In this document: piece by piece, positions 21,701 through 39,861 of the stretch
How the letters are laid out: every line of letters starts with the position of its first letter
Numbering within the stretch: position 1 is the first letter of the stretch
NCBI RefSeq assembly: GCF_021284745.1
Contig: NZ_CP089925.1
Location: 2,355,001-2,419,000, forward strand
DNA length: 64,000 bases
Direction: 5' to 3'
Origin: Lysobacter sp. KIS68-7
GTDB taxonomy: Bacteria; Pseudomonadota; Gammaproteobacteria; Xanthomonadales; Xanthomonadaceae
Translations under genes and position numbers: made by a program
The notes under the pieces: model-generated
Databases searched by the model: none
What the model was told of the DNA's origin: nothing
The model's input: only the letters and a program-made list of their open reading frames with translations

Positions 21701-21726
21701 TGTCTGCTTTCGGCCAGAAGCGGACA
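21701..21726 (+). repeat. 26-bp palindromic repeat (unit 1)
   Basis: Arms TGTCTGCTT and AAGCGGACA around TCGGCCAG. Member of the TGTCCGCTT/AAGCGGACA family; lies 25 bp after the isochorismatase-like gene. Confidence 0.8.
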
Positions 21727-21760
21727 CTTGAGGAGCGGGCCCTACCTCGCAGCCGATCGC

Positions 21761-21790
21761 GACGCAGCGCATCCATTGGTGCGCTGCGTC
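21761..21790. terminator. Strong hairpin between convergent genes
   Basis: GACGCAGCGCA (21761-21771) and TGCGCTGCGTC (21780-21790) form a perfect 11-bp stem with an 8-base loop between the convergent hydrolase and secreted-protein genes. No T-tract; a bidirectional terminator by position. Confidence 0.45.
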
Positions 21791-21809
21791 GTCCCGCCGG
21801 CACGATGGC

Positions 21810-22658
21810 TCAGGGTGGCGTGAAATTGAGCAAGTACGGGTGGTTGGGGTCGGTCGGGTCGCAGGCAAAGTTGAAGTGCTGCGCGAACTGCGGGGCAAAT
21901 TGCGCCACGCAGGCATTCTTCTCGGCTGCGCTCATCGGAATGATGTTGCGCTCGACGAGGGGCCCTTCTTCGCTGCAGCCAAAGCCTTCACCGCCAGCGA
22001 GGAAGCCGCCGAGGTAGCTCGTGGTGACGGCGTCAGGGGGCAGCGGAGAGTTGCTCTCGAAGTACCAATCAATCTCGGGGATGCCACTCTGGAGGCCGCA
22101 GCCGAACCGATGGACGAAGCTCGGCGTCGCCGCCAGCACGCGGTTGCCGATGGCCACGCACACATCGGGGCACAGACACACGCCGGGAATCGTGACCGGC
22201 ACGGACAGCGCGCTGAAGGGCGCGCTCTGCGACGCGCCCTTGGTCGAGCTCATGGCCTTGACCCGGATCTGGACGGTCTTGGCGTGATACGTCGCGGGCA
22301 CGGTGCACGGCGAATCCCCCGACGTACACACAGTGACATCCAGGGAGGCCGGCGCGATGTCGACCACGGGGCTGCGACTGAAAATGGAGAACTTGAAGGT
22401 CTGGCTCAGGTCCGGGCTGCCGTTGCAGTCGGGGTCGTACGTGGCGATGGCTTCGATGGAGTATTTGTCCGGCGGGGGGATCAGGGTGTCCATGGTCCAT
22501 GCGCAGACCACGGGTTGCGATGGCTCGACGGTACAGACTGGCGTGCCGGGGGCCGTCGTGTACCCCGGCTGTTTTGCGGACAGGTCAGCCGCGGGCAGCA
22601 GCAACGACATCGCGGCACACAGGGGAACCAGCGCAGGGCGCGCGGGAGCGAGCGTCAT
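21810..22658 (-). CDS. Cysteine-rich exported protein of unknown function
   Basis: 282 residues with a signal peptide (about 1-28, ending LSAKQ). About a dozen cysteines are scattered through the mature part (for example IPGVCLCPDVCVAIG and GFGCSEEG), suggesting several disulfides. No family recognised. Beta-rich composition. Monocistronic, convergent with the isochorismatase-like gene. Confidence 0.65.
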   Translation of the reverse strand: MTLAPARPALVPLCAAMSLLLPAADLSAKQPGYTTAPGTPVCTVEPSQPVVCAWTMDTLIPPPDKYSIEAIATYDPDCNGSPDLSQTFKFSIFSRSPVVDIAPASLDVTVCTSGDSPCTVPATYHAKTVQIRVKAMSSTKGASQSAPFSALSVPVTIPGVCLCPDVCVAIGNRVLAATPSFVHRFGCGLQSGIPEIDWYFESNSPLPPDAVTTSYLGGFLAGGEGFGCSEEGPLVERNIIPMSAAEKNACVAQFAPQFAQHFNFACDPTDPNHPYLLNFTPP

Positions 22659-22949
22659 GGGGGCCTCCGGCAGGAGTGCATGCTCGCTGGCTATGATCCG
22701 GTTGCCCGGGAGAGGACACCATCACCCGAGTGTGCACTCAACCATCCTCAAGCCCCCATGAGCAGTTTCCGTGGGGAAGCTCATCTTCGATCTGAACCAG
22801 TCACTCGACGGCGGCGATCATGGCCAGCGAGTTGATCTACGACAGGGTCCTTCGGTTAGGGGCGTCAGCGGTCACCTGGTGATCTATGGCAGCTTTCGGC
22901 CAATAGCGGACATTCAAGGGGCAGCGCACGGAACGCTACCGGTGGTGCG
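22659..22949. other. Non-coding stretch with one degenerate palindrome
   Basis: 291 bp between two minus-strand genes. It carries a damaged copy of the 26-bp palindrome (22887-22912) and no gene I can support. Confidence 0.5.
22887..22912 (+). repeat. 26-bp palindromic repeat (unit 2, degenerate)
   Basis: Right arm AGCGGACA is intact; left arm reads TGGCAGCTT. One half is therefore eroded. Confidence 0.65.
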
Positions 22950-23408
22950 CTACGAGGCGTCGGAGGCCGCGTTGAACATCGTTGGGCCAATCTGCACAGC
23001 GAAGGGTTCGAATGTCGTCACCGAAATGGACTTCGCAAAAAACCCCTTCTTCCTGATGACATAGGGGACGTAGATGAACCTTGAGAAGCCTTCACTTTCC
23101 AGATGAACACGCAGCCCATCCGGGGCCTGCGGGTTGTACTCCTTTGGAATATCTACGTTTGCTGCCAAAGCAGCCGCCGCGATCGAGCCCTCTGCAGCAC
23201 TTGAAGTAAATGATTCGCACAGGAGGCGATAAAGGTCCTGAGGCGCCGGCCTCTCCTGGCCGTTGTAGCCACCTGCCGCCGACACCTGACCATCGGCGCT
23301 GAGCGTGGCACCGAAGGGGTAGAAATCGCCTGAGTCGTTGAGCATCACCTTGGCGAAGTCGATGCAATAGTTCAGAAGCTCTTGCAGCTTTTCCGGGGAT
23401 GCGCCCAT
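22950..23408 (-). CDS. Hypothetical protein
   Basis: 152 residues from ATG at 23408 (MGASPEKLQELLNYCIDF). The segment MLNDSGDFYPFGATLSADG reads like an alpha/beta domain seen in many small orphan proteins that travel with these repeats. No signal peptide. No family recognised. It lies between palindromes 2 and 3 and reads opposite to the neighbouring plus-strand small genes. Confidence 0.65.
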   Translation of the reverse strand: MGASPEKLQELLNYCIDFAKVMLNDSGDFYPFGATLSADGQVSAAGGYNGQERPAPQDLYRLLCESFTSSAAEGSIAAAALAANVDIPKEYNPQAPDGLRVHLESEGFSRFIYVPYVIRKKGFFAKSISVTTFEPFAVQIGPTMFNAASDAS

Positions 23409-23450
23409 GCGTAAGTCGCCAGAGTGAATGCCAACGCGCAGCGTACGCGA

Positions 23451-23476
23451 TGTCCGCTTTGGGTCGAAAGCGGTCA
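23451..23476 (-). repeat. 26-bp palindromic repeat (unit 3)
   Basis: Arms TGTCCGCTT and AAGCGGTCA; the reverse complement matches unit 8. It forms an inverted pair with unit 4, 42 bp away. Confidence 0.8.
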
Positions 23477-23518
23477 CTCGTGACCGGCCGTCACCCCGCC
23501 ACCGGGAGTGGCCGCCAA

Positions 23519-23544
23519 TGTCCGCTTTCGACCCAAAGCGGACA
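23519..23544 (+). repeat. 26-bp palindromic repeat (unit 4)
   Basis: Arms TGTCCGCTT and AAGCGGACA, interior TCGACCCA. Perfect arms. Confidence 0.85.
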
Positions 23545-23613
23545 TTTGAAGCTCCGCCTTTGCGCCGCTACCCTTCGCGCCAATGACCGGCAAACTCTTG
23601 GTACACGAAAAAC

Positions 23614-23988
23614 ATGAAGTTGCTTGAGTTCGTCCCAGGAAACGATCTGGAAGATCTCATCATTAGGGCAAGGCGCGGATCTATGTCCCTCGATGACTTG
23701 CTGTCGAAGGTTGCGGATGCGTCCGTTTACTTACCTAGTCGAAGGGAAGTTGAGCAAGATGGGCAGGGTTTCGAGCCGTTGCTCATAGGATCAGAAGCCA
23801 ATCCGCTTGTCGCGGCCTTCTCGTCTCTCTCAAGATCGGAGACGACTCGCAGTCGGGCGTCGTATGTTCTCCGAATGCCAGGGCGCGAGTTCTTCCGACG
23901 ACTTCCGGGCGGATTTGGCGTGGTACTCAACCCGGGATTCGAGACGCAGCTAGTAATCTCCGAGGATGTCGTACCTCGTTTGAGATAG
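23614..23988 (+). CDS. SseB-like domain protein
   Basis: 124 residues. LPSRREVEQDGQGFEPLLIG and the later VLRMPGREFFRRLPGG with VLNPG match the SseB N-terminal domain, found alone in many bacteria. Function outside Salmonella is unknown. Soluble, cytoplasmic. Palindrome unit 5 begins eight bases after its stop codon, and a small gene follows. Confidence 0.7.
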   Translation: MKLLEFVPGNDLEDLIIRARRGSMSLDDLLSKVADASVYLPSRREVEQDGQGFEPLLIGSEANPLVAAFSSLSRSETTRSRASYVLRMPGREFFRRLPGGFGVVLNPGFETQLVISEDVVPRLR

Positions 23989-23995
23989 GCGCGAG

Positions 23996-24021
23996 TGTCC
24001 GCTTCTGGCCGAAAGCGGACA
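23996..24021 (+). repeat. 26-bp palindromic repeat (unit 5)
   Basis: Arms TGTCCGCTT and AAGCGGACA, interior CTGGCCGA. Lies eight bases after the SseB-like gene. Confidence 0.85.
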
Positions 24022-24050
24022 GTTTCGCAGCCAATTCGCTAGGAGCGACG

Positions 24051-24218
24051 ATGAACCCGGAACAGTGGAGTCAGGACATAGCCGAGTTGGCGGCTGATGC
24101 GTTGGTTGACGCAAAGTTGATCGATCGCAGCGTCATGGCGAAGGCAAAGGAAATCATCGCCGAGGAGATTTGGATACGCCTCAACCTCGGCGATTTTCCG
24201 ACCAAGCCTGAGGTGTGA
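24051..24218 (+). CDS. Small hypothetical protein (55 aa)
   Basis: ATG at 24051 with AGGAG (24041-24045) placed ideally upstream; 55 codons to TGA at 24216-24218. Acidic helical peptide (DIAELAADALVDAKLIDR, KAKEIIAEEIWIRL). It sits between palindromes 5 and 6 in the same orientation as the SseB-like gene, giving a cassette-like gene-repeat-gene-repeat order. No family recognised. Confidence 0.65.
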   Translation: MNPEQWSQDIAELAADALVDAKLIDRSVMAKAKEIIAEEIWIRLNLGDFPTKPEV

Positions 24219-24234
24219 CAGACCCGGCCGCGCA

Positions 24235-24260
24235 TGTCCGCTTTTGGCCGAAAGCGGACA
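24235..24260 (+). repeat. 26-bp palindromic repeat (unit 6)
   Basis: Arms TGTCCGCTT and AAGCGGACA, interior TTGGCCGA; 17 bases after the 55-aa gene. Confidence 0.85.
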
Positions 24261-24309
24261 CTTCACCCCCTTCAATGCTGTGCCCTCAGGTAATCATGAG
24301 AGTGGCTAT

Positions 24310-25104
24310 TTACTTCCTGCCGGCAGCCAACTCGGCCTCACGCCGCGCCCCGCACGCGTAGTGCACGAACAGGACGATCGCCCAGCTCACCCACAGCGAC
24401 CAAAGGGTGTGTGAGAGGAAGTGGGCGCCGCGCATCTGCTGGATCCATCCGAGTCCGAAGGACCACGCGAATGCGAGGAGGGCGATGCACACGCATCTCC
24501 GCGGGCGCTCGGGATACCAGAGCCATGTGAACGACAGCATCCAGGATCCGCTGCTCACGAACGCCGAAGGGAAGCACCGGCCGGGTGGCACGCCAGCGGG
24601 CGTTGCCTGCAGCAGATCGAAGTAGGGGCTGGCGCCTCCGAACTCCGCGACGTCCCACGGACAATGCGTGGCGCTCAAGTGATGCAACAGGCCGATCGTG
24701 GCGGGCACCACGATGAATGAGATCGCGACGCACGCAAGGCGTCGCCGATGCGTGGACAGGAAGCCCGGCTGCGTCGAACGGGCAGCGAGAATCGCAAGGA
24801 CACACATCGCGATTCCGGCGACGATCTCCAGCGACTTCAGGATTCGATGCACGGCGTAGTGCGTGAGCCACGCGTCGCGCCAAGGGAAGGTGTGGCTGGT
24901 CCGGTCGTACCAATGCGCCGCCAGGTCCAGGTCGAGTCGGGTGGCATGGAAGACAATGGCCAAGGCCCCGCCGGTCAACGCCAGTCCAAGCAAGTGCCAT
25001 CGATAGAGCGCTGGCCGGTGCATCGGCATCGGGCGTCGCCGCCATGTCGGAGGGCGGCGATCATGCCCGATGCCCCATGAGCGGCGGGTCAGGGTAGCGG
25101 ACAT
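24310..25104 (-). CDS. PAP2-superfamily membrane protein (possibly inactive)
   Basis: 264 residues from ATG at 25104 (a start at 25029 or 25023 is also possible). Five or six membrane helices. PAP2 motifs are recognisable: GRCFPSAFVSSGSW in the place of PSGH and RGAHFLSHTLWS in the place of SRxxxxxHxxxD. The histidine of PSGH is replaced (PSAF), so lipid-phosphatase activity is doubtful. The family normally dephosphorylates membrane lipid phosphates at the periplasmic face. Divergent from the small gene at 25170. Confidence 0.75.
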   Translation of the reverse strand: MSATLTRRSWGIGHDRRPPTWRRRPMPMHRPALYRWHLLGLALTGGALAIVFHATRLDLDLAAHWYDRTSHTFPWRDAWLTHYAVHRILKSLEIVAGIAMCVLAILAARSTQPGFLSTHRRRLACVAISFIVVPATIGLLHHLSATHCPWDVAEFGGASPYFDLLQATPAGVPPGRCFPSAFVSSGSWMLSFTWLWYPERPRRCVCIALLAFAWSFGLGWIQQMRGAHFLSHTLWSLWVSWAIVLFVHYACGARREAELAAGRK

Positions 25105-25169
25105 GGCCCAGGCGTCTTCACCCAGCAGTGCGTTAGAGTCGCCGTCCCGCATCCCCCTACACCTTGTCA

Positions 25170-25544
25170 ATGGCATACAAGCTCTCGCTGCCTCGCGAGC
25201 ATGAAATCCTTGAGTTGGTCTACGACGGACCGGTTAGCTATCGCGAACGACTGGATGCACTCGAAGACATGTCGTCGATCCTTGAAGCAACCAGCGTGCG
25301 AAACATTCTGGTGAACTTCACGAATGCGAAGCTGCTGGTGAACGACGACAACGACCGCATTGATTTCATTGCGAAGAGCGCGGTATCTCCCACCCTCAAT
25401 GGGTGTCGGGTCGCAATGCTGGGGCTATCGCGCGAAGACGGGCGGTCCACGCAGACGACGGCTCAGATCAGACAACTTGAGCTGGCCTTCTTCGATGACC
25501 GTGAAGAAGCGATCGCTTGGCTTGCATCACTCCGACGGGAGTGA
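25170..25544 (+). CDS. STAS/SpoIIAA-like small protein
   Basis: 124 residues; ATG at 25170 preferred over a TTG six bases upstream. The beta-alpha pattern with [31 protein letters not shown] and the final AIAWLASL resembles the SpoIIAA/STAS-like group with lipid or nucleotide binding. Function unknown. It converges on the cytochrome P460 gene (stop codons abut at 25544/25545). Confidence 0.6.
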
Positions 25545-26111
25545 TCAAGGCGAGTACTTCGTGAACACGTAGTCGCGCTGCGTGACGGCCTGGTGGCAGA
25601 CAAAGCAGGAGTACATCACTTTTTCATCGGTGGTCGGCTGGAGGTCTTTTCCGAAATTCGAGTAGCCCCAACCACCCGTGGCGGCATACTTTTTGGAATC
25701 CTTCTCCATGAACTGCAGATACCAATCGGGTGCGTCTCCCGGAACGAACGATTGTTCCTTGCCGAAGGTCTTGTTGTTCTCTTCGGAGGGGACCATTTTC
25801 CAGGCCACTCGGCCGACGACGGAACCCTCGGGAAAGGGCTTGCCTGCGCGATAGGCCCGGATCGCGATGTCATTGCCGATCACAACGCGTATGTCGTTGA
25901 GATCACCGGCTTCATGGGCGGCCGAAACGAATTTCCAGTCTCGGTATCCTTGCGGGATCGTCGTCACGATGACTTGCTTGGCCGCGTTGCTGTCTGGTGT
26001 CGCTTGCCCGGCCGTCATGCCGGTGTTCTGTCCAAACGAAGCAGGTGCCAGCCATGCTGCGGTGCCGGTGAGCACGCCCGCCGCAACGAACACCAGCGCG
26101 ATGCGTTTCAT
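25545..26111 (-). CDS. Cytochrome P460-family protein
   Basis: 188 residues, start ATG 26111 with GAGGG upstream. Signal peptide (1-28). Heme-binding CxxCH near the C-terminus (Cys169-Phe-Val-Cys172-His173) and the preceding beta-rich domain are typical of P460 cytochromes, which detoxify hydroxylamine or nitric oxide in the periplasm. Divergent from the large DUF11 protein with a 260-bp gap. A lysine-heme crosslink cannot be confirmed here. Confidence 0.85.
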   Translation of the reverse strand: MKRIALVFVAAGVLTGTAAWLAPASFGQNTGMTAGQATPDSNAAKQVIVTTIPQGYRDWKFVSAAHEAGDLNDIRVVIGNDIAIRAYRAGKPFPEGSVVGRVAWKMVPSEENNKTFGKEQSFVPGDAPDWYLQFMEKDSKKYAATGGWGYSNFGKDLQPTTDEKVMYSCFVCHQAVTQRDYVFTKYSP

Positions 26112-26371
26112 GGTGTCCCTCTTCTTGTTTGAGCCATAGCGGCGAAAGGAGATCACCCGAGGAAAGGCGAATCCATTACGCCTTCTGGGTGATGGGAGCG
26201 CCACGGCGTGCCAACGCGTGGTCGACATGCGATCGGCCATCCGCCGCTCACCTGTACGAGTTACACCTGCACGAGGGATTCCTGCGAGCGACCGTCGGGA
26301 AGATGCTCCGCGGGCCGTTGCCGGTCTCCTGCGGGCTTCCGGTTGCGTCCTTCTTCCAGAGGAATCCGGAC

Positions 26372-28225
26372 ATGTCCAAGCCGACAACCCGTTTCCAAAA
26401 GAATGCCGGTCGCGTCCTCACCTTGCTCCTCGTGGCCGCGGGCGTGGCAATCCCGCTGATCGCGCTCTCGGTCAACGACGAAACCATCTTCGAACTCGAA
26501 GGCAACGCCGTCGATGGCCCACCGGCCGGCGATGACTGGGAAAACATCGCGGACGATCGTCCGGGTGGCCCTGGGCTGATCGCCCAGAACCATTCCAACG
26601 TCCAGACGTTCATCACCGACGGCCTCGACGCCACGGACACCGCGTTCACGGGCGGCGGCTCGAAGGACGTCAACAACGTCAATCAATGGCAACAGGTCAC
26701 GTCCGCGGTTTCGCCCATCAAGAACGAAATCGGCCATGCCTTTGCAGCGGCGTACACCGATCCCTCGAACGGTCACCTGCTGGTCTATTTCGGCCTGGAT
26801 CGTTCCGGCTCCGGTGGCACCGCCGCGACCGGCTTCTGGTTCTTCAAGGACAAGATCAGCCTTGGCGCCAACGGACAGTTCGTCGGCACGCACACCGTCG
26901 GCGACATCCTGGTCACTTCCGACTACGTCACCGGTGGCAAGATCGGCGAGATCAACGTGTTCCGGTGGATCGGTGGACAGAAGCCCCTGCAAGTCGTTGG
27001 GTCCACCTCGACGGGCGGTGGCTTCACCGTCGGCGATCGGTACTGCCTGAATAACGTCGCGGGCCAGACCACGCCGATGGCGTGCGCGGCGTCCAACAGC
27101 AATCCCGAAACCGTGCCGTCGTCCTGGTCCACTTACTTCTTCAAGTCCGGCAGCACGTTCGATCCGACGAACACGTTCCCGGCGCGCACGTTCTTCGAAG
27201 GCGGCGTCGACCTCACCCAGATCTTCGGCACCGGATCGACGTGTTTCGCTTCGTTCATGGCGATGACCCGTACGTCGGCCTCCACCTCCGCGCAACTGAA
27301 GGATTTCGCGCTCGGCGACTTCGCCTTGTGCGACATGTCCGTGGCGAAGGCCTGCAAGGTCGAAGCCGGCGTGAGCCCGGTGGTGAATCCGGATGGCGTC
27401 AGCGTCCATACGAATTTCACCGTGACGTTCTCCAACCCGAGTGGCGGCACCTTGCGTGACGTGCAACTGGTCGAGAAGCTCGGCCTGGGCGGCACGACCG
27501 GAAACGCCTGCAAGATCACCGCCGTCGACCTGGGCTCGGGCGGCACCGCCGCGAATCCGGCGACGCCGTTGAACACCAACCTGGTCAAGGACACCGCGTA
27601 TGAAATCGCCAACACCATCGCGGGCCACTCCTCGGTTGACGTGACGTTGTCCTGCGACAGCCTGGATAACCCGCTCCTCAACATCGTGGAGGCGCGAGCG
27701 AAGACCTTCGTCGGCGCGGGCGATCCCGACCTGGTCCGCACGTACCAGATGAAGTCCGACGACGATGTCCTGGATGAGTGCGTCGCCCCCACCAACACGG
27801 CGATCGACGTGACCAAGGACTGCGTCGGCGACAAGGTGACGCTGGTCAACACCTCGGGCGGCATGAAGGCGCACGCCTGCTTCAGCATCGAGGTCACCAA
27901 CAAGGGCAACGTTGCGTTGAAGAACCTCGTGGTGGCCGACCCGAAGATCAGCGCCAATTCGTTGGTGCCGACGGGAACGACGTTGGGGCCCGCGGGGTCG
28001 GCGACGGACTCGATCCTGCTCGGTGACACCGATCACAGCGGCACGATCGACGCCGGCGAAGGCCTGTGCTTCGACGCGATCGCGCCCGACAACGGCGAAA
28101 CCGATACCGACGTTGCAGTGTTTGGAAACCGGGTGGACGTGAGCGCCGATACGGCCATTCCGGTCCCGAGCTTCCCCAACCCGCAGACCGACTACGCCAC
28201 CGACAGCTGCCCGCTGTGCAAATGA
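26372..28225 (+). CDS. Exported protein with DUF11-like C-terminal domain
   Basis: 617 residues from ATG at 26372 with AGAGGA upstream. Hydrophobic export signal (about 14-32). Beta-rich repeats through the body; the segment CFSIEVTNKGNVALKNLVV (about residue 505) is typical of DUF11/immunoglobulin-like extracellular repeats. Cysteines occur in pairs. Probably a surface or secreted adhesin-like protein; exact role unknown. A strong hairpin terminator follows at 28266. Confidence 0.75.
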   Translation: MSKPTTRFQKNAGRVLTLLLVAAGVAIPLIALSVNDETIFELEGNAVDGPPAGDDWENIADDRPGGPGLIAQNHSNVQTFITDGLDATDTAFTGGGSKDVNNVNQWQQVTSAVSPIKNEIGHAFAAAYTDPSNGHLLVYFGLDRSGSGGTAATGFWFFKDKISLGANGQFVGTHTVGDILVTSDYVTGGKIGEINVFRWIGGQKPLQVVGSTSTGGGFTVGDRYCLNNVAGQTTPMACAASNSNPETVPSSWSTYFFKSGSTFDPTNTFPARTFFEGGVDLTQIFGTGSTCFASFMAMTRTSASTSAQLKDFALGDFALCDMSVAKACKVEAGVSPVVNPDGVSVHTNFTVTFSNPSGGTLRDVQLVEKLGLGGTTGNACKITAVDLGSGGTAANPATPLNTNLVKDTAYEIANTIAGHSSVDVTLSCDSLDNPLLNIVEARAKTFVGAGDPDLVRTYQMKSDDDVLDECVAPTNTAIDVTKDCVGDKVTLVNTSGGMKAHACFSIEVTNKGNVALKNLVVADPKISANSLVPTGTTLGPAGSATDSILLGDTDHSGTIDAGEGLCFDAIAPDNGETDTDVAVFGNRVDVSADTAIPVPSFPNPQTDYATDSCPLCK

Positions 28226-28265
28226 CGGCAAGCCGCTGATCGGCGGAAGCTGATCGGTTGAACGA

Positions 28266-28299
28266 GGGGCGACGGGATTTCCCGTCGCCCCGTTTCTTT
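28266..28299 (+). terminator. Rho-independent terminator
   Basis: GGGGCGACGGG (28266-28276), loop ATTT, CCCGTCGCCCC (28281-28291), then TTTCTTT. Perfect 11-bp stem with a T-run, 41 bp after the DUF11 gene. Confidence 0.88.
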
Positions 28300-28349
28300 G
28301 ACCGATGCGTAGCGATTGCCGCGTTGGCGCCAGCAAAGGGAGGCCTGCG

Positions 28350-29662: not shown

Positions 29663-29671
29663 TTCGGTGGG

Positions 29672-32441: not shown

Positions 32442-32494
32442 GGTGGCACCCGATCGTTTGCATTTGCCCAGACTTTGAGGCCGCTATAGACTCA

Positions 32495-32536
32495 ATACAA
32501 ATCATGGATTGATCGTGATCCCATAGATATTTGTAT
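32495..32536. promoter_or_regulatory. Inverted repeat between SDR and LysR genes
   Basis: ATACAAAT (32495-32502) and ATTTGTAT (32529-32536), 26 bp apart, the second half overlapping the lysR start codon. The T-N11-A rule does not fit exactly; candidate LysR autoregulatory site. Confidence 0.45.
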
Positions 32537-33404
32537 GTCTCATCTCCTCTACCTTCGAAGCTTTCTCAGTGTCTACCGGCACAACTCCATCTCGCGGGCT
32601 GCCGACGCGCTCCATCTGACGCAACCCGCCGTGTCGCGGCACATCAAGGTGCTCGAGAGTCGCCTGGGCTGCCGGCTGTTCGAGCGCTTGCCGCGAGGAA
32701 TCGCGTCGACGCCTGCCGCCAACGAATTGGAGCGCCAGGTGGGAGCGCATCTGGATGCGCTGGAAGCCCTCGTGGGCATCGCCGGCGGGAAGAACGAGGC
32801 TCTGGCAGGCGTCATCCATGTGGGGGCGACCAGTGGCTTCACGAAGCTGGTCCTCTCGGGATTTGCGCCCTTGCCGCAGTACGGCATCCGTCTCGACTTG
32901 CGATCGGCGCCACCGCCCGCGCTGCTGACGGCCCTGGCTGACAAGGAGTTGGATCTGGCCGTGACGCCGGCACGGATTCCGCACAAGGCGATCGATTACG
33001 ACCTGCTGTACGAGGGGCCTCTGGTGCTGGTGTGTGCGCCGCGTTGGCGGGAGCGACTTCCCAAGTCAGCAGCGCCCAGGGGATTGCCACTGATCGACAT
33101 CCAGGGCCCGGTGCCCGCGCTTGCGAGCTTCTGGCGTGCCGCATTCGGATCGAATCCGGACCTCCCGTCGGCCATCGTCCCGGACTACCAGGCGGCGCTC
33201 GATGCCGCCGCCGCAGGCACCGGATTGGCTGTCGTCCCTGCGTGCCTGTGCACTGGCCTGCTGCAATCGGGTCAGTTGATCAGCCAGAACACCAAGGCGA
33301 ATTCCCGGGTGTCCCTCTTCGTGGCGCGTAGGAAAGGGAGCGTTGTCCTCGACCGCGTTCGTATCAGTAACGCGCTTCTCGCGGAAGCGGCGAGGGCTTG
33401 GTAG
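32535..33404 (+). CDS. LysR-family transcriptional regulator
   Basis: 289 residues. N-terminal HTH (NSISRAADALHLTQPAVSRH, then IKVLESRLGCRLF) and a C-terminal periplasmic-binding-like effector domain. Divergent from the SDR-VOC operon, so likely its regulator. No Shine-Dalgarno sequence lies before the ATG. Its 3' end overlaps the ArsR-type gene by 41 bp. Inducer unknown. Confidence 0.9.
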   Translation: MSHLLYLRSFLSVYRHNSISRAADALHLTQPAVSRHIKVLESRLGCRLFERLPRGIASTPAANELERQVGAHLDALEALVGIAGGKNEALAGVIHVGATSGFTKLVLSGFAPLPQYGIRLDLRSAPPPALLTALADKELDLAVTPARIPHKAIDYDLLYEGPLVLVCAPRWRERLPKSAAPRGLPLIDIQGPVPALASFWRAAFGSNPDLPSAIVPDYQAALDAAAAGTGLAVVPACLCTGLLQSGQLISQNTKANSRVSLFVARRKGSVVLDRVRISNALLAEAARAW

Positions 33405-34068
33405 CGGCAGGCGCAAGGACGCGGTAGCCCTCGCGTGTCACCGTGAGGATGCGCGAGTGGGGCCGCATCCTCACCCATCCGTTCTCGATGCACGCGCGCA
33501 GAACATTGGCGCCGAGTTGCCCGGCGATGTGCGGACGACGCTCGCTCCAATCCATGCAAGGCCGCACCGCGGGCCTGCGCTTGGACGCATCGGGGAGCGG
33601 TACGCCCAGTGTTTCGAACGCGACTGCGCCGTCGGGCGTGAGCGTCCAGTCTTCGCGCGCGTCATCGATCCAACCGCGCTCGATCGCCATCGTTGCGAAT
33701 CGCACCGCGACTTCGCCGGCCATGTGGTCGTAGCACGATCGCGCGTGCCGCAGTTCCGCATCCGCGGGACCGAGCTGCTGTTTCGCAACAGGCGTTGAAG
33801 CAATCGTCATGAGCGCTTCCAGCGCCAAAGCGACTTCGACGTTCGCCAGGCGGTGATAGCGATGACGGCCCTGGCTCTGGACCGCGACCAGGCCTGCCTG
33901 CGTCAACTTTGCCAAGTGCGCACTCGCCGTCTGCGGCGTCACGCCGGAGACACGCGCCAATTCCCCGGCGGTGCGGCTTCGGTCGTCCATCAACGCGGCC
34001 AGCATCAGCGCACGCGCGGGTTCACCGATGAGGGAGGCGAACTTTGCAATGGGCGGCCCGGAAGTCAT
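33364..34068 (-). CDS. ArsR-family winged-helix regulator
   Basis: 234 residues, longer than usual for ArsR (about 110). The wHTH lies at about 15-80 (RTAGELARVSGVTPQTASAH, LVAVQSQGRHRYHRL); a C-terminal extension with several histidines and cysteines (ARSCYDHM, RPCMDWSERRPH) is similar to other long members. Divergent from the alpha/beta hydrolase gene; a short inverted repeat lies at the start. It probably represses the hydrolase-monooxygenase pair. Confidence 0.85.
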   Translation of the reverse strand: MTSGPPIAKFASLIGEPARALMLAALMDDRSRTAGELARVSGVTPQTASAHLAKLTQAGLVAVQSQGRHRYHRLANVEVALALEALMTIASTPVAKQQLGPADAELRHARSCYDHMAGEVAVRFATMAIERGWIDDAREDWTLTPDGAVAFETLGVPLPDASKRRPAVRPCMDWSERRPHIAGQLGANVLRACIENGWVRMRPHSRILTVTREGYRVLAPAATKPSPLPREARY

Positions 34069-34069
34069 G

Positions 34070-34083
34070 GTTCGATACCGAAC
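34070..34083. promoter_or_regulatory. GTTCG/CGAAC inverted repeat
   Basis: GTTCG-ATAC-CGAAC, immediately upstream of the arsR-type gene, in the region shared with the hydrolase gene. Candidate ArsR operator. Confidence 0.5.
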
Positions 34084-34138
34084 GAAACATCGGATGACGG
34101 TCGAGGGCTAGCTTAGCGTTTTGACACGTGAGCTGCCG

Positions 34139-35050
34139 ATGTCCCAATACGTTCCATGGCGCACGGGCGATGAGCGCCTGAAGCTTGCGATCGTCCGGCA
34201 ACGCGGCGACGGTGCCGCCGTCCTTTACGTGCATGGCGCCACGTTCCCGGCGTCGATGTCCGTTGGCTGGTGCATGCAGGGCGTGTCCTGGCTGGATCAT
34301 CTCCAGGAGTCTGGGTTCGATGCATGGGGCTTCGATTTCGCCGGATACGGCGGCTCGTCGCGCCCTGCCGCGCTCGCAGGACCGGCCGATGCAGCCCCGC
34401 CATTCGGAGACAGCGTGGCCGCTGCTGCGCAGATCATCGAAGTGTTGGAACACATCCACCACGTGCGACCGAATACGCCAATCCACGTCGTCGCGCATTC
34501 GTGGGGAACATTGCCGGCACGGCGCGTCGCCGCCGAACGGCCGGATCTCATCCAACGCCTCGTCCTGTTCGGGCCGGTGGCCACGCGAGCGGGGGATCGC
34601 AACACGAGGCCGGAACCTGCATGGCAACTGATCACGTCGGCAATGCAGCGCCCTCGACAACGCGAGGGCATGCCCGATGCGCTCCCGACACCGGTCACCG
34701 CGCAGGAACTGGAGCGTTGGTGCGACGCGTATCTCGCGACCGACGGGACGTCCGCGTCGCGCGCACCCGCATCCGTGAAGGTGCCGAACGGCCCGATGGC
34801 CGACATCGCGCGCATGTGGGCGGGTGAACGCCTGGTCGACAGCGGCCGCGTCAAACAGCCCACCCTCATCATCCGCGGCGAATGGGATGACGTCACCACG
34901 GATTCCGACGCGCAGCGACTCTTCGCCGAATTGGGAGCCGCGGAAAAACGCGACATCAAGATTGCCGGAGGAAACCACTGGTTGCACTTGCAGCCGCAGC
35001 GCACGGCGCTGTGGGCCGAAGTGACCGCATTCCTCAAGGAGCCCGCATGA
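34139..35050 (+). CDS. Alpha/beta-fold hydrolase
   Basis: 303 residues; ATG at 34139 preferred over an upstream TTG. YVHGATFP (oxyanion loop), nucleophile Ser121 in AHSWG, acid in GEWDD, and His in GNHWLHL give a full triad. Cytoplasmic esterase or epoxide-hydrolase type, substrate unknown. It overlaps the following ABM gene by four bases (ATGA, 35047-35050). Confidence 0.87.
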   Translation: MSQYVPWRTGDERLKLAIVRQRGDGAAVLYVHGATFPASMSVGWCMQGVSWLDHLQESGFDAWGFDFAGYGGSSRPAALAGPADAAPPFGDSVAAAAQIIEVLEHIHHVRPNTPIHVVAHSWGTLPARRVAAERPDLIQRLVLFGPVATRAGDRNTRPEPAWQLITSAMQRPRQREGMPDALPTPVTAQELERWCDAYLATDGTSASRAPASVKVPNGPMADIARMWAGERLVDSGRVKQPTLIIRGEWDDVTTDSDAQRLFAELGAAEKRDIKIAGGNHWLHLQPQRTALWAEVTAFLKEPA

Positions 35051-35349
35051 TCGCCGTCATTTTCGAAGTCGAGTTCGACGATACCGAGAAAGCGCAACGG
35101 TATTTCGACATCGCACAATCGCTGCGGCCCAACCTGGACGCCATCCAAGGCTTTCTTTCGATCGAGCGTTTCCAGAGCGTGTCCACGCCGGGCAAGATCC
35201 TGTCGTACTCCCTTTGGGAAAACGAAAGTGCCATCCGCCAATGGCGCGAGCATCCGGAACACGCGCTGGCGCAGGAGACCGGCAAGCGATCGCTGTTCAA
35301 GTCCTACCGGATCGCGGTTGCCGTCGTGGACCGGGTTCGAAGCGGGTGA
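35047..35349 (+). CDS. ABM-type monooxygenase-like protein
   Basis: 100 residues from ATG at 35047. Dimeric alpha-beta-barrel pattern: AVIFEVEFDDTEKAQRYFD, helix, then SYSLWENESAIRQWREH. Coupled with the hydrolase gene by an ATGA overlap, under presumed ArsR control. Function unknown; members often act on aromatic or quinone compounds. Confidence 0.75.
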   Translation: MIAVIFEVEFDDTEKAQRYFDIAQSLRPNLDAIQGFLSIERFQSVSTPGKILSYSLWENESAIRQWREHPEHALAQETGKRSLFKSYRIAVAVVDRVRSG

Positions 35350-35625
35350 TTGCGGTCGCTAGAAAATGGTGACCAAGTATTGCCACGAACACCCCCGCGG
35401 TTGGCCACCCTGTTGACAGGTGTCCACCCCCATTATTTTTCGGAAACGGCGCTGGAGGGTGTGAGTTCCCGTTCGTGCGCTCCGTCCGACCAAGAAAAAT
35501 TCTCAGATGAGGACCGCTGCGAACCCCACTTTTGTGACCGGGTCGCGCATTAACATTCCCCCCGATGCCGCGCGGCCCGGGGAGGGCCGTGTGTCGCATC
35601 CACGATCCGAATCCAGGGGAAATCC
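35350..35625. other. Intergenic region upstream of the beta-helix gene
   Basis: 276 bp. Contains a TTGACA hexamer (35413-35418) without a convincing -10 partner, and a short interrupted palindrome around CCTGTTGACAGG. No gene seen. Confidence 0.4.
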
Positions 35626-36477
35626 ATGAAGCGTCTTTACCAGTTGGCAGCCCTCGTGCTGCTGGCGTCGCCCGCCGCCGCCTTCGCACAGAGCTGCACG
35701 ACCATCACCGCCGTCCCGGCGGTCATCAGCGCGCCCGGCAAGTACTGCCTGGCGTCCGATTTCACGATCAACTCGACGACCGCCAAGGCGATCAACATCA
35801 ACGCCAGCGATGTCACGCTCGACTGCGATGGCCACACGCTGAAGAACGCCGCCACTGCCAACAACGGCACGTCGGCCGGCATCTACATCGGCAACCGCAA
35901 CAACATCGTGGTCAAGAACTGCCGCGTCATCGGCGGCTTCCAGAACGGCATCGACCTGTTCCAGACCAACACGCAGCCGAACAAGAACTACTACGTCCAG
36001 ATCCGCGACAACTACGTCGCCGGCCCGTTCTGGCACGGCATCCGGGCCTACGGCAGCGCGCTCGAAGTGACCGGCAACAAGGTGTACGACGTGGGCGGCC
36101 AGGTGAACACCTACGCGATCGGCATCCGCCTCGGCGGTTCGACCAGCGGCTTCCGCCAGCACATCGTGCGCGACAACCTGGTGGTCGGCACGAACTCGCC
36201 GGCCTCGGCGGCGTACGGCATCTTCAGCGACGGCTCGCTGAGCAGCGTGTATGCGCAGAACGTCGTCGCCGGCACGTCGGCGAGCGCAGGCAAGGTCACC
36301 TACGGCATGTACATCACCGGCACCTTCAACCGCGTCAGCGACAACCATGTCACGGGCGTTGGCTCGCCGGACGACACCGCGATCTTCACCACCGACGGTT
36401 CGACGAGCTGCTTCGACAACTACCTCCGGTCCGCCACGCGCACGCTGAACTGCGACGCGACGATGGGCAATTTCTGA
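35626..36477 (+). CDS. Exported right-handed beta-helix protein
   Basis: 283 residues with a signal peptide (1-22, AAFAQS). The repetition of short beta strands with Asn ladders (SDVTLDCDGHTLKNA, IVVKNCRVIGGFQNGIDL, IRDNYVAGPFWHGIRAY, VSDNHVTGVG) is typical of NosD/pectate-lyase-like parallel beta-helices. It may bind or cleave polysaccharide. No catalytic residues can be assigned. Monocistronic. Confidence 0.8.
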   Translation: MKRLYQLAALVLLASPAAAFAQSCTTITAVPAVISAPGKYCLASDFTINSTTAKAININASDVTLDCDGHTLKNAATANNGTSAGIYIGNRNNIVVKNCRVIGGFQNGIDLFQTNTQPNKNYYVQIRDNYVAGPFWHGIRAYGSALEVTGNKVYDVGGQVNTYAIGIRLGGSTSGFRQHIVRDNLVVGTNSPASAAYGIFSDGSLSSVYAQNVVAGTSASAGKVTYGMYITGTFNRVSDNHVTGVGSPDDTAIFTTDGSTSCFDNYLRSATRTLNCDATMGNF

Positions 36478-36524
36478 TGTGATCCCGGGGCGGTCGCGCA
36501 GGTCGCGGCCGTCCTTTCGATGGC

Positions 36525-36956
36525 ATGAACATTCGCAGCACATCGCTATTTTTGGTCGCGGCCGTCATCGCGATCGCAGCATTGGCGTGGTGGCGGGAAG
36601 CACGCGCGCCGGCACCCGTCACGCCGATGGCGCCGGTCGTTTCGCACGTCGAAACCGAAGCACTTCCTCCGGGGCTCCGCCGATTGTTGTACACGCGCCT
36701 GGGCCAGCCCGCGCAACTGCGCATCAAGCGCGTGCACGTGGTGGATACGCCGCCTTACGACGGCGTGGCCTGCGGCTTTGTGGCGTGGGGCGACGCGGCC
36801 GGCCCGGACGGCGGATTCAAGCGTTTCGTCGCCACCCGGCGCAACGTGCTGGTGGAAGGACGCGTGGACATCGAGCCGGTCTGGCGCAAGGTCTGTAAGC
36901 TCGGTGCCACTACAGGACCAACGGGTCCGTCTATCAGGTCGTCAGGGCCCATATGA
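36525..36956 (+). CDS. N-terminally anchored periplasmic protein
   Basis: 143 residues. One hydrophobic segment (5-23) as signal or anchor, then a proline-rich linker and a beta-rich domain (RRLLYTRLGQPAQLRIKRV; KRFVATRRNVLVEGRVD). Overlaps the following gene by four bases. No family recognised. Confidence 0.6.
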   Translation: MNIRSTSLFLVAAVIAIAALAWWREARAPAPVTPMAPVVSHVETEALPPGLRRLLYTRLGQPAQLRIKRVHVVDTPPYDGVACGFVAWGDAAGPDGGFKRFVATRRNVLVEGRVDIEPVWRKVCKLGATTGPTGPSIRSSGPI

Positions 36957-37501
36957 GACTTCCCGCAGCCGTTCTACTTGTTCTTCTCGCATTCCCGGCG
37001 GCCGCGGCGATTGAAAAGGTTGCGGCTCGGACGGAATCCGGCATCCATTTCATGTGGTGGCCAAAGGTCGACCCGCCGAAAGGTTGGCACTTCGATGAGG
37101 GGTCCTCGCACCACTTTGCGTTCAATGCGCTTGCTCCGGACGGCTCGACCTTTTCAGAGGCCGAAACCGTCATGTACGCGCGAGCCGACTACAAGCCTCG
37201 TATTCCCGAGACAAAGAGTCTGCAGTCCTACATTTCCAACGACATGGGCGAGTTCAAGCGCTCCGATGCCGGTATGACCGTTTCACGAGAGCGCCCAATC
37301 CTCACCAAGGACGCGATCGAATTTCAGGTCGTCGCGTATTCGCCCGGCAAAGGCAGCTCCGGAAACTGGGAGCGCGTCGCCTACGCAGAGGATGGCGACT
37401 ACTACCTCACGTTTGTCATCAGCTCTCGCACAGAAGTTGGGCTTGCTGGCGCAATGCCTGCGTTCAATTCGTTCGTCGCGGGATATCGGACTGGGCTCTG
37501 A
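36953..37501 (+). CDS. Exported protein of unknown function
   Basis: 182 residues, signal peptide (1-19, AFPAAAA). Segments KGWHFDEGSSHHFAFNALAP and FQVVAYSPGKG. It starts inside the previous stop codon region (ATGA), so the two periplasmic proteins are coupled. No family recognised. Confidence 0.65.
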   Translation: MRLPAAVLLVLLAFPAAAAIEKVAARTESGIHFMWWPKVDPPKGWHFDEGSSHHFAFNALAPDGSTFSEAETVMYARADYKPRIPETKSLQSYISNDMGEFKRSDAGMTVSRERPILTKDAIEFQVVAYSPGKGSSGNWERVAYAEDGDYYLTFVISSRTEVGLAGAMPAFNSFVAGYRTGL

Positions 37502-37520
37502 CCTTCGCAAACGAGTGCCG

Positions 37521-38000
37521 TCAGGAAGGCGACGCGTCGCTTTCTGGCGGCGCCTCGCTGCGATCGATGGCGTCGTATTCGCGCAGTTCGCGTTTTGCGT
37601 CGCGGATCGTGTTGGCGTCGAGTGGGCGGATCGTTTCGATCCGACACGCGTTGATGGCAGCCGGTGAACCACCGGCGCCGCGGGTCACGACGCTATCCAT
37701 CCCGCTGTTGACGACGCCCATCGAGTTCGTGAACGAGAGACCGGCTGAGGTGAGCATGCGAGGGCAGGGGTTGCGCAGTTCGATCAGGTGTCCACTCGTC
37801 GGCGTCGCCCACACCGTCAGCGTCCGATCGTCCAGGGGCGTCCATTGCCGCATGCCAGCGCGCGGCAACTGGAAGGAAGCGACCGGTTCGCCGGCGTGTT
37901 CGCGGTAGAGCGCAACCCGCTCCTCCCTGGTCAGCGTCGAGCCGGTCGAACAGGCGGCCAGCGCGGCGGCCAGCATCAACAAAGGTAGTGCGTTCCGCAT
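37521..38000 (-). CDS. Lipoprotein, DUF6491-like
   Basis: 159 residues from ATG at 38000. Lipobox LAAC (residues about 13-16 of MRNALPLLMLAAALAACS). The middle contains DDRTLTVWATPTSGHLIELR and NACRIETIRPLD, typical of a small xanthomonad lipoprotein family. Function unknown. Monocistronic. Confidence 0.7.
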   Translation of the reverse strand: MRNALPLLMLAAALAACSTGSTLTREERVALYREHAGEPVASFQLPRAGMRQWTPLDDRTLTVWATPTSGHLIELRNPCPRMLTSAGLSFTNSMGVVNSGMDSVVTRGAGGSPAAINACRIETIRPLDANTIRDAKRELREYDAIDRSEAPPESDASPS

Positions 38001-38172
38001 GTGTCGTCTCCCGTGGCGAGGTAGAGCCGAGCCCTCTTGTTGATCAGCTTCGGAAGACCAGGCTCGCAACGCATAGGCGACAAGCGATTACGCTCGGTCA
38101 GGTAAAGCAGCGGTGAGGATCGCATGACCGCAATGACCCACCCGCGCATTTGCTTTCGACCCAAGTGACTTG

Positions 38173-38198
38173 GCTCCGCTTCTGCCCGAAAGCGGACC
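38173..38198 (+). repeat. 26-bp palindromic repeat (unit 7, degenerate ends)
   Basis: Core TCCGCTT...AAGCGGA intact; outer bases changed. Pairs with unit 8. Confidence 0.65.
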
Positions 38199-38231
38199 CT
38201 CCGACTCCTCAGGCCGGTCCACGCCTCTGAG

Positions 38232-38257
38232 TGACCGCTTTCGACCCCAAGCGGACA
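38232..38257 (+). repeat. 26-bp palindromic repeat (unit 8)
   Basis: Arms TGACCGCTT and AAGCGGACA, interior TCGACCCC. 69 bp before the small gene at 38326. Confidence 0.8.
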
Positions 38258-38325
38258 TTCCGATCGCTGCGCTCGGTCCGGCTATCATCGCGCCAAGTAA
38301 GCCGACGTCTTTGAGTTGCGCATCG

Positions 38326-38736
38326 ATGAATTTTTCAGATCAAACAGATGAGGTATCTGCTCAGCTAGAACCAGACGAAATCCTGTCATTGGTGCGAGCC
38401 CTTCCCAGAGTTCTTGTTGACTTGGTCGGAGACGCAAACCTTGTTGCGCGTTATGGCGCAGGCTGCCAAATTCACGGCGACCTATGGCTTGTTCCCATGC
38501 GGGTCAACACGTCCTGGTTGGCGGATTTCTTGGAACGGGCAATTGACCAGAACATTTTTCTTCCATGCGACGCCGAGATGCGTATCGATCTCGAGAGTGG
38601 CCACCTCAAGGTTGCGTTCTGCAATGAGGGGCATCTGCATGTCGGCGGGTCCAGCGAGTCGCTCCGAAGCGCATTCCTGTCCAGTGAACCATTTAGTACC
38701 GTCAGGATGGTGGGCTGGTCGGACGGACTGGGATGA
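38326..38736 (+). CDS. Hypothetical protein
   Basis: 136 residues from ATG at 38326. Helical N-terminus (EPDEILSLVRALPRVLVDLV), then a beta-rich half with ERAIDQNIFLPCDAEMRIDL. No signal. No family recognised. The 26-bp palindrome (unit 9) starts one base after the stop codon. Confidence 0.6.
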   Translation: MNFSDQTDEVSAQLEPDEILSLVRALPRVLVDLVGDANLVARYGAGCQIHGDLWLVPMRVNTSWLADFLERAIDQNIFLPCDAEMRIDLESGHLKVAFCNEGHLHVGGSSESLRSAFLSSEPFSTVRMVGWSDGLG

Positions 38737-38762
38737 CGTCCGCTTCTGGCGGAAAACTGCCA
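38737..38762 (+). repeat. 26-bp palindromic repeat (unit 9, degenerate right arm)
   Basis: Left arm CGTCCGCTT intact; right arm reads AAAACTGCC. Starts at the base after the stop codon at 38736. Confidence 0.6.
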
Positions 38763-38806
38763 TGGCCGGCTTGTGAGTCGAACCCCGTCCTGCATAAGCT
38801 CACGCC

Positions 38807-39145
38807 GTGAGCCAACTCGACAACATTCCGCCACACCTTCAGAAGCGATCAATTTCCCCGAGGGAGATCGTGCTTCCGCTTGCCGACGCATTGGAAGCAA
38901 TCGACTGCCTGGAGTCCCAATCGGCTCTGATCCTGGGCTGGGAGGGCTGGGTAAAGGCGGCTGATGGTCGCGTTGGGCATGGTAGCGCTGGCTACCTGAG
39001 TACATCCACCGAACACCTCTCGGTTGCTGAGGCTGCCGCCGACGCGCGCAAGACGATCAAAGCTGGCGCATTGGACTGGCAAGAAAAACATGGTGGCGGC
39101 ACCGATGTTTTGCACTTCTGCATAACAGTGAGGCCGACTAGCTAG
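38807..39145 (+). CDS. Hypothetical protein
   Basis: 112 residues, GTG start at 38807. Segment EIVLPLADALEAIDCLESQ and GWVKAADGRVGHGSAGY. No signal or membrane segment. No family recognised. Palindrome unit 10 lies 13 bases after the stop. Confidence 0.5.
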   Translation: MSQLDNIPPHLQKRSISPREIVLPLADALEAIDCLESQSALILGWEGWVKAADGRVGHGSAGYLSTSTEHLSVAEAAADARKTIKAGALDWQEKHGGGTDVLHFCITVRPTS

Positions 39146-39158
39146 CAGGACTGTCGAA

Positions 39159-39184
39159 TGTCCGCTTCTGGCCGATAGCGGACA
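39159..39184 (+). repeat. 26-bp palindromic repeat (unit 10)
   Basis: Arms TGTCCGCTT and TAGCGGACA, interior CTGGCCGA. Forms a pair with unit 11, nine bases away. Confidence 0.8.
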
Positions 39185-39193
39185 TGGGGCACG

Positions 39194-39219
39194 TGACTGC
39201 TTCCGACCCGAATCGGACA
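39194..39219 (+). repeat. 26-bp palindromic repeat (unit 11, degenerate)
   Basis: Arms TGACTGCTT and AATCGGACA, interior CCGACCCG. Three compensating differences keep the symmetry only partly. Confidence 0.6.
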
Positions 39220-39276
39220 TTCGCCCACTGAACGCTCCGCCTGCGGGCCTGGTCATGGACATCGGAGAGAAAGGAA

Positions 39277-39492
39277 ATGAATGACGCAAGTCAGGGTGAA
39301 AGCGAGAAGTCCAAGTCGCGCGCCATGGCCATCTCCATCGGTTTTGTCGCTGCCTTCGTCACAGCGGTTACGGTCTCGCTCTCCACGCCGGACGGCAACC
39401 TCGTCGTGACTTTGGTGCCAGCACTGGCAGTTGGGCTGGTCGTGTTCGGCCTGACGTCGTGGCGCACACGAAAGCGGACATCGAACAGATGA
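39277..39492 (+). CDS. Small membrane protein
   Basis: 71 residues, two membrane helices (about 18-36 and 42-62, VTLVPALAVGLVVFGLTSW), hydrophilic N-terminus with lysines and a basic C-terminal tail. Both ends probably cytoplasmic. Palindrome unit 12 begins inside its stop codon. No family recognised. Confidence 0.55.
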   Translation: MNDASQGESEKSKSRAMAISIGFVAAFVTAVTVSLSTPDGNLVVTLVPALAVGLVVFGLTSWRTRKRTSNR

Positions 39493-39515
39493 CCGCTTTC
39501 GACCCAAAGCGGACA
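39490..39515 (+). repeat. 26-bp palindromic repeat (unit 12)
   Basis: Arms TGACCGCTT and AAGCGGACA, interior TCGACCCA. The first three bases are the TGA stop codon of the small membrane protein. Confidence 0.85.
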
Positions 39516-39553
39516 TTCCGTCTGTAGCCAAGGGGTCCGGTACCATTTCCCAA

Positions 39554-39835
39554 ATGACCGACACCATTCGATGCCGTGTTCACGGCGACCAGGAGCAAAC
39601 GTTCGTTTGCCAACACTTGGCGACGGCCTTGGAAACCGGCGAGAGAGTCGGCTTCTTTTGGGCAAGTGGGGAGGACGGGGCGCGAGGCGACGCATGGTGC
39701 TCTACATGCGAGGAGGCGCGGATTCGGGAGGGTGGCGAATCTGGTGACTGGAACGACCGGTCCCAGAAGATCGCCAACATCAAGATTCTCTGCGGTTCTT
39801 GCTTCGACCGTGTTCGCGCAATGCACGGGTTGTGA
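39554..39835 (+). CDS. Cysteine-rich (zinc-ribbon-like) small protein
   Basis: 93 residues. Two CxxC pairs and two further cysteine-histidine sites (CRVHGDQ, FVCQH, WCSTCEEAR, ILCGSCFD) look like one or two zinc-binding ribbons. Cytoplasmic. No exact family recognised. Palindrome unit 13 starts one base after the stop codon. Confidence 0.6.
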   Translation: MTDTIRCRVHGDQEQTFVCQHLATALETGERVGFFWASGEDGARGDAWCSTCEEARIREGGESGDWNDRSQKIANIKILCGSCFDRVRAMHGL

Positions 39836-39861
39836 TGTCCGCTTCTGGCCGAAAGCGGAGA
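39836..39861 (+). repeat. 26-bp palindromic repeat (unit 13)
   Basis: Arms TGTCCGCTT and AAGCGGAGA, interior CTGGCCGA. Starts one base after the zinc-ribbon gene stop. Confidence 0.8.

Follow-up and report, generated by a model that had tools for sequence, protein, structure and literature searches.

What are the short palindromes that stand beside small genes of no known family in Lysobacter sp. KIS68-7, and do they mark the borders of mobile units? The genome (G000; 3.25 Mb in one contig) holds thirteen such palindromes in the 64,000-bp window analysed here (G000:C1:2355001-2419000), whose own numbering is used below. The original prediction, made from this window alone, had suggested either a new class of mobile cassette or a 3'-end stability signal. 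Comparing the window with related and distant genomes, we conclude that the palindromes are probably the recombination sites of an integron-like gene-cassette system that does not depend on the integron integrase IntI; they could serve as a 3'-end stability signal in addition.

Directional palindromes beside small genes

The 13 palindromes, each with 9-bp arms and an 8-bp centre, lie in the two clusters predicted. Three have perfect arms, against an expectation of 0.00 from 100 shuffles, and six have one arm mismatch. Four (at 22887, 38173, 38737 and 39194) have three or more mismatches, so that the predicted total of thirteen copies was right and the count of three damaged copies was not. A 14th, weak match at 16448 (5 mismatches), outside both clusters, may be due to chance. 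The arms, TGTCCGCTT/AAGCGGACA, are nearly symmetric. The centre is asymmetric and of two kinds, TCGGCCAG or TCGGCCAA in what we call G sites and TCGACCCA in D sites, and every site consequently has a direction (+ or -).

Left cluster
21701-21726, + strand: G+ site, at the 3' end of the left-arm gene 21810-22658(-)
22887-22912, + strand: degenerate G+ site, at the 3' end of gene 22950-23477(-)
23451-23476, - strand: D- site, left half of the divergent array head; overlaps the called start of gene 22950-23477
23451-23544, no strand: divergent head, D- / 42 bp / D+; a strong hairpin on folding (z -9.2)
23519-23544, + strand: D+ site, right half of the array head
23996-24021, - strand: G- site, 7 bp past the stop of gene 23614-23988
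24235-24260, - strand: G- site, 16 bp past the stop of gene 24051-24218
Right cluster
38173-38257, + strand: composite site, degenerate G- (38173-38198) / 33 bp / D+ (38232-38257)
38737-38762, - strand: degenerate G- site, abutting the stop codon of gene 38326-38736
39159-39219, + strand: composite site, G- (39159-39184) / 9 bp / degenerate D+ (39194-39219)
39472-39480, - strand: lone right arm, remnant of a G- site
39490-39515, + strand: D+ site
39836-39861, - strand: G- site, abutting the stop codon of gene 39554-39835

The left cluster consists of the divergent head (D- at 23451, D+ at 23519) with two genes on each arm, and the right cluster is a rightward array of four small genes:

21810-22658, - strand: left-arm cassette gene, 282 amino acids (aa); no Pfam family
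22950-23477, - strand: left-arm cassette gene, 175 aa; no Pfam family
23614-23988, + strand: cassette gene, 124 aa; SseB N-terminal domain (PF07179, E 1.1e-6, above cut-off)
24051-24218, + strand: cassette gene, 55 aa; no family
38326-38736, + strand: cassette gene, 136 aa from the ATG at 38326 (the longest open reading frame (ORF) starts at 38170); no family
38807-39145, + strand: cassette gene, 112 aa; no family
39277-39492, + strand: cassette gene, 71 aa; only below-cut-off matches (DUF1761, DUF3188)
39554-39835, + strand: cassette gene, 93 aa; no family

The SseB-like gene had been recognised as such, and the remaining seven gave nothing above cut-off in Pfam; anti-phage profiles matched none of the eight proteins. 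The small genes had been put at 55 to 152 codons: we recovered 55, 71, 93, 112, 124 and 136 aa, and could not reproduce the upper figure. Three sites had been placed at or next to stop codons. Those at 38737 and 39836 directly follow one, and the TGA of gene 39277-39492 forms the first three bases of site 39490. The broader idea that the repeats mark 3' ends is too narrow, since the window's four D+ sites precede gene starts by 39-70 bp. The two kinds of centre, the left-arm genes 22950-23477(-) and 21810-22658(-), the divergent centre at 23451-23544 and the orientation rule described below were all absent from the original prediction.

A fixed order of gene and site across the genus

We searched five genomes of the genus (G000 to G004, G002 being Lysobacter gilvus HX-5-24 and G003 Lysobacter dokdonensis DS-58, now Noviluteimonas dokdonensis) and found 85, 76, 27, 53 and 35 sites in the five, with up to 6 mismatches; the stretches fetched were those chosen for holding sites. 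The order of a unit in these genomes is D+, gene, G-, or the reverse complement. Orientation agrees in 189 of 204 neighbouring site pairs less than 3 kb apart, and D-/D+ pairs make up 7 of the 15 exceptions. The largest array that we saw, 38 kb in G004, has 67 sites (38 G- and 29 D+), none in the opposite orientation. An ORF stop lies within 40 bp upstream of 69 of 129 G sites on the unit strand, compared with 25 of 129 on the other strand. As far as can be judged from aligned sequence, the site architecture, the orientation rule and the unit borders treated below are well established.

In many cases the border of the mobile unit is a two-part G-/D+ site. The spacers of 45 such composite sites measured 5-12 bp (27 sites), 22 bp (5), 31-34 bp (12) and 45 bp (1), which corresponds roughly to whole helical turns; 17 of the 44 distinct spacers are 11 or 12 bp long. 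The formal p-value for this grouping (5e-12) is too optimistic, because the spacers within a class are related to one another and the period was chosen with the data in view (10 to 11.5 were tried). The grouping may point to a duplex DNA substrate. Folded in silico, all five sites examined form long hairpins (z -3 to -9). Covariation was convincing in none of the four pairings considered, the best of them (within G) being equalled by 68 of 2000 shuffles. A folded single strand may thus still serve as the substrate.

The proteins encoded in these arrays are diverse. Our Pfam survey comprised 88 ORFs (86 of 113 listed plus two set by hand, 38326 in place of 38170 and 39277) and matched 26 families at E ≤1e-2; among the 25 families shown, 24 have one member each and one has two. 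Such variety resembles the content of integron cassettes. A scan of the window's left cluster for consensus promoters found none, with 0.7 expected.

Units and their borders differ between relatives

Single gene-site units sit at differing places in relatives, as expected of a cassette system, and their homology often breaks off at sites. One example, together with the larger segment that contains both clusters, is listed here:

38763-39220, + strand: one whole unit, gene plus composite site; 89% identical to a unit in the 38-kb array of G004 (L034 6338-6804)
20824-40091, no strand: 19.3-kb segment with both clusters near its ends; missing at this place in all four congeners

The G004 array holds two copies that are 98% identical to each other. 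They diverge on one side inside the left arm of a D+ site and on the other directly past a G- palindrome, whose core has one mismatch. We then counted breakpoints over 42 of 160 homology blocks (150-2000 bp long, with 80% identity or more and a site no further than 600 bp from either copy), leaving out ends at locus edges. Ends of the shared units fell at or inside sites in 33 of 79 cases, compared with 9.8 expected from the local density of sites.

Synteny in all relatives together with random scatter of the repeats, which had been set against the cassette idea, is not what we observed. The 19.3-kb segment is missing from its place in all four congeners, where its flanks lie 0 to about 135 bp apart (no search for it elsewhere in those genomes was made), and the sites of G000, among the matches listed, are clustered in about ten islands. 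The genes between the two clusters of the window look chromosomal.

Several further features accompany the arrays. A repeat of about 160 bp stands inverted at both ends of the 19.3-kb segment (20827-20992 and 39923-40088), occurs again at window 44893-45263, and recurs in other site-cluster stretches (L023 2198-2366; L028 2896-3078 and 8595-8777). A relative of gene 21810-22658 with 80% DNA identity lies beside another array of G000 (L030 11832-12735). The Rfam small RNA sRNA-Xcc1, which we take to be an integron-cassette RNA of Xanthomonas, is found at window 12820-12903 and a second time towards the right end of the G004 array (L035 6834-6916). In at least G002 (C1-C7) and G001 (C4, C5, C7, C8), draft contigs break off no more than a few hundred bases from a site. 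Such ends are expected if the sites are repeated or rearranging, and they suggest repeats or mixed arrangements in the sequenced culture.

A small tyrosine recombinase in the arrays

The original prediction had named a recombinase as something to look for, and relatives' arrays contain one. It is a tyrosine recombinase of 208-218 aa, consisting of the catalytic domain only, and lies inside arrays of G002 (two copies) and G003; G001 has it only as contig-end fragments. The protein matches the Phage_integrase domain (PF00589, E 4.7e-20) and no NCBIfam model above cut-off. Residues R59, K87, H156, R159 and Y191 are invariant in all 49 aligned recombinases, and H182 is present in at least 90%; we presume their catalytic roles from general knowledge of the family. 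(The alignment leaves out sequences with internal stops or odd lengths, contig-edge fragments and the copy in L044.) That a recombinase of a distinct small family lies inside relatives' arrays supports the cassette reading.

The recombinase of L039 and L049 has a G- site on one side and a G+ site on the other, and the block homologous between these loci is exactly the recombinase unit (L039 3647-4409 with L049 107-870). In L049, which is from Noviluteimonas gilva, the gene itself spans 188-814. We scored sites downstream of recombinase matches extending to residue 200 and followed by 60 bp or more of sequence, several of which come from one genome or genus. A site of at least 15 bits lies within 110 bp past the stop in 21 of 57 copies, and in 16 of 51 outside the genomes from which the matrix was built; 1.7% of random stretches of the same loci have such a site.

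Beyond the genus, the recombinase (E ≤1e-40) occurs in 55 of 398 genomes of a phylum sample and is rare in a phage collection (3 of 50,697 records at E ≤1e-20). A contig scan with peptide patterns returned three Noviluteimonas loci and one weak fragment, so few because the patterns were taken from the N terminus. On a Roseomonas gilardii plasmid (L062 1373-5588), two recombinase copies are each immediately preceded by a RelE/ParE-type toxin gene and its partner, and VOC and NUDIX genes separate the copies, an arrangement that suggests a duplicated block.

An independent array in a distant gammaproteobacterium

Among 369 gammaproteobacterial genomes, 17 have the recombinase (E ≤1e-20) and 18 the D-site pattern. 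The one genome with both, G102, belongs to a gammaproteobacterium of another family with a GC content of about 0.36. Its recombinase, 62% identical to that of the genus, lies at the ends of two arrays, each time about 26 bp from the array's last G-type site. In one stretch (L091), a G-type site with the expected orientation lies no more than 57 bp from the end of 10 of the 12 genes called at 2.8-9.4 kb. The consensus of these sites is CGGCGCAATAGCGGTCATT, and the asymmetric cores are conserved between the distant genomes. The G102 arrays also have heads: a 112-bp module of D-, AT-rich centre and D+ occurs at L091 5797-5908, L093 7882-7993 and L094 6681-6792. Two of the three 52-bp centres are identical and the third is similar. 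This module is possibly a divergent promoter with attachment sites.

Occupied and empty sites in E. coli

A 761-bp recombinase unit was matched in 983 of 5,426 complete Escherichia coli genomes, with at least 80% of the unit in 765; some matches are fragments only. Of 1,081 places, 1,044 are chromosomal. Strains that differ at such a place offer naturally occurring pairs of an occupied and an empty site. Nissle 1917 and EcPF7 agree on either side of the site (95.3% identity over 5.3 kb and 99.9% over 5.0 kb). Nissle has two directly repeated sites with 4.27 kb between them, including the recombinase, where EcPF7 has one site. The two alignments overlap only in the palindrome, and the switch from left-flank to right-flank letters falls inside it. 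In strain F41 a different stretch, 3.4 kb long, lies between sites at this junction sequence, and here too the letters change over within the palindrome. The right-end site of the inserted DNA is composite in both Nissle and F41; the empty site is simple.

With an 863-bp junction query, 4,155 records matched. In 14 of the 40 matches listed, an edge of the alignment lies inside the site, two were full-length and one covered the site only. For one E. coli site sequence, the DNA beyond the site differs between genomes. These comparisons of deposited genomes indicate that differences in gene presence fall exactly at sites in E. coli, and that recombinase and site are associated locally. Among the products annotated nearby are an anti-phage dGTPase, HEPN and dynamin-family proteins. 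Two E. coli Rac-like prophages (L170 and L171) carry different genes at corresponding places between ydaV and hok, beside a copy or remnant of the recombinase unit; L171 carries an annotated anti-phage dGTPase.

How such a system would work

We propose the following mechanism. Each site, about 34 bp long, would consist of two inverted half-sites around the asymmetric 8-bp core. A cassette would comprise a small gene and the G site behind it; this G site would often be linked to a D site, giving the two-part G-(spacer)D+ site, which would be attC-like in its layout. The recombinase would bind both halves of a G or D palindrome, direct repeats of the same kind of site would pair, and strand exchange in the core would release or insert the gene with its composite site. 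Repeated exchange would build co-oriented arrays starting at a D-/D+ head. The enzyme that performs the exchange is most likely the recombinase of about 208 aa found in or at the ends of relatives' arrays. It would presumably act on circular substrates and on duplex DNA, and the D-/D+ heads may drive expression.

A number of observations weigh against this proposal. G000 itself and G004 have no recombinase of the array family (E ≤1e-5), an Xer-like protein with 30% identity being the only match; without such a gene, G000 probably has arrays that are stranded or that depend on an outside supply of the enzyme. The third complete recombinase copy of the genus (L044) has a site on its upstream side only, and 36 of the 57 recombinases, L044 included, have no recognisable site just downstream; their sites may be diverged or absent. 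The single genome with both recombinase and D-site pattern compares with about 0.8 expected by chance, so that the link between the two rests on local position. Covariation favours neither a single-stranded nor a duplex substrate, and 46 of the 79 homology ends lie away from any site. In E. coli, F41 shares no more than about 0.6 kb of left flank, and this belongs to a sequence present at a median of two places per genome. Moreover, 23 of the 40 listed junction matches stop 50-58 bp before the site, the genes between sites break the orientation rule, unlike those of Noviluteimonas, and each E. coli difference taken singly could be a deletion between 24-bp direct repeats.

Alternative explanations

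The last point belongs to an account of passive repeats, in which the palindromes are hairpins at the 3' ends of RNAs and genes are shuffled when short repeats recombine through ordinary homology or slippage. G sites are frequently found right at stop codons and would fold into RNA hairpins, and deletion between 24-bp repeats could account for the Nissle/EcPF7 difference. Passive repeats would not lead one to expect D sites at gene starts, asymmetric cores kept between distant genomes, spacer lengths grouped about 11 bp apart, a recurring tyrosine recombinase with a site at its 3' end, or different DNA beyond one E. coli site sequence, and we regard this account as unlikely. We are similarly doubtful that the palindromes resemble repetitive extragenic palindromic (REP) sequences, bacterial interspersed mosaic elements (BIMEs) or insertion sequences (IS), that is, transposon ends or RAYT-mobilised elements inserted next to genes. 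The palindrome pairs are indeed inverted, and inverted G sites flank the recombinase of L039 and L049, much as terminal repeats do in an IS. A RAYT gene had been the other candidate to accompany the repeats, however, and G000 has no match to its domain Y1_Tnp (PF01797); co-orientation, the order gene-site-gene and breakpoints that take in whole genes would also be unexpected.

That the arrays are remnants of an ordinary integron, an attC cluster without its integrase, would suit their layout, the small orphan genes with few known families and the two-part sites able to fold into a long hairpin. This explanation is strongly disfavoured and, in our estimation, very improbable: as the original prediction noted, the attC consensus is lacking, the R-box pair (taking the motif as RYYYAAC ... 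GTTRRRY) being present in none of the 45 composite sites. None of the five genus genomes has an IntI integrase (TIGR02249) above cut-off, the array recombinase scores 22.4 bits against the 265-bit cut-off of that model, and the sites recur beside this different recombinase. Least probable of all is that the units are modules moved by the host XerC/XerD on dif-like sites, in the manner of the Acinetobacter pdif modules. Such modules have a comparable layout, with genes enclosed by short sites of opposite orientation, and G000 has two tyrosine recombinases of Xer-like size and score. Against it, a separate recombinase adjoins the sites, a G/D-type site is present in none of five loci of Xer-like genes (about 3.2 kb each), and the arms TGTCCGCTT/AAGCGGACA presumably differ from XerC/XerD arms, judging by eye against the dif consensus.

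Reach of the proposed cassette system

Integrons are the classic bacterial system for stockpiling and shuffling single genes as cassettes. On the broadest interpretation, which we think has an even chance of being correct, the sites described here belong to a second gene-cassette platform, independent of integrons and spread across Pseudomonadota, including about 1/7 of complete E. coli genomes. A catalytic-domain-only tyrosine recombinase would shuffle small genes at two-part palindromic sites. The resulting arrays would reach about 38 kb in Noviluteimonas; in E. coli the system would load hotspots in prophages and islands, among whose neighbouring genes are some annotated as anti-phage.

If the system is real and widespread, many unexplained islands of orphan genes would become readable as cassette arrays, whose borders would be predictable from a short DNA motif. 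The natural occupied and empty sites of E. coli strains, with a recombinase of only about 200 residues, would make a tractable model, and the two-part site would offer a direct test of how attC-like sites originate. We found no description of these sites or arrays in the open-access literature, which is weak evidence of novelty since subscription papers and preprints were outside its scope, and an earlier description is possible. Six site strings of 13-17 letters do not occur in that literature, and for four 10-letter strings no title among the matches listed concerned repeats or mobile elements.

Comparison with known systems

FimB/FimE-type enzymes invert one promoter segment. The array recombinase resembles these invertases in being about 200 aa long with the catalytic domain only, and has a weak, below-cut-off match to their profile (NF007371, E 2e-5); it differs in the many directly repeated sites of its arrays. 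REP/BIME-REPIN elements with RAYT also form inverted palindrome pairs in intergenic space, whereas the sites here bound mobile genes and are not themselves mobile. The pdif modules are alike in that mobile genes or gene groups are bounded by short, oppositely oriented tyrosine-recombinase sites; the separate recombinase family, the other site sequence and the long ordered arrays appear to set the present system apart.

The nearest counterpart is the integron. Both have co-oriented arrays of small, mostly unknown genes, each with an often two-part recombination site, and a tyrosine recombinase at the array end. For arrays without a recombinase, PMC9024848 uses the term CALIN (clusters of attC sites lacking integron-integrases), and the stranded arrays here look alike to that extent. 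Here the recombinase of about 208 aa has no IntI match above cut-off, each half of the site is itself palindromic with no R-box pair, the heads are divergent with two arms, and the recombinase abuts the 3' end of the last cassette rather than the head. The composite and simple sites of E. coli can be likened to attC and attI, respectively.

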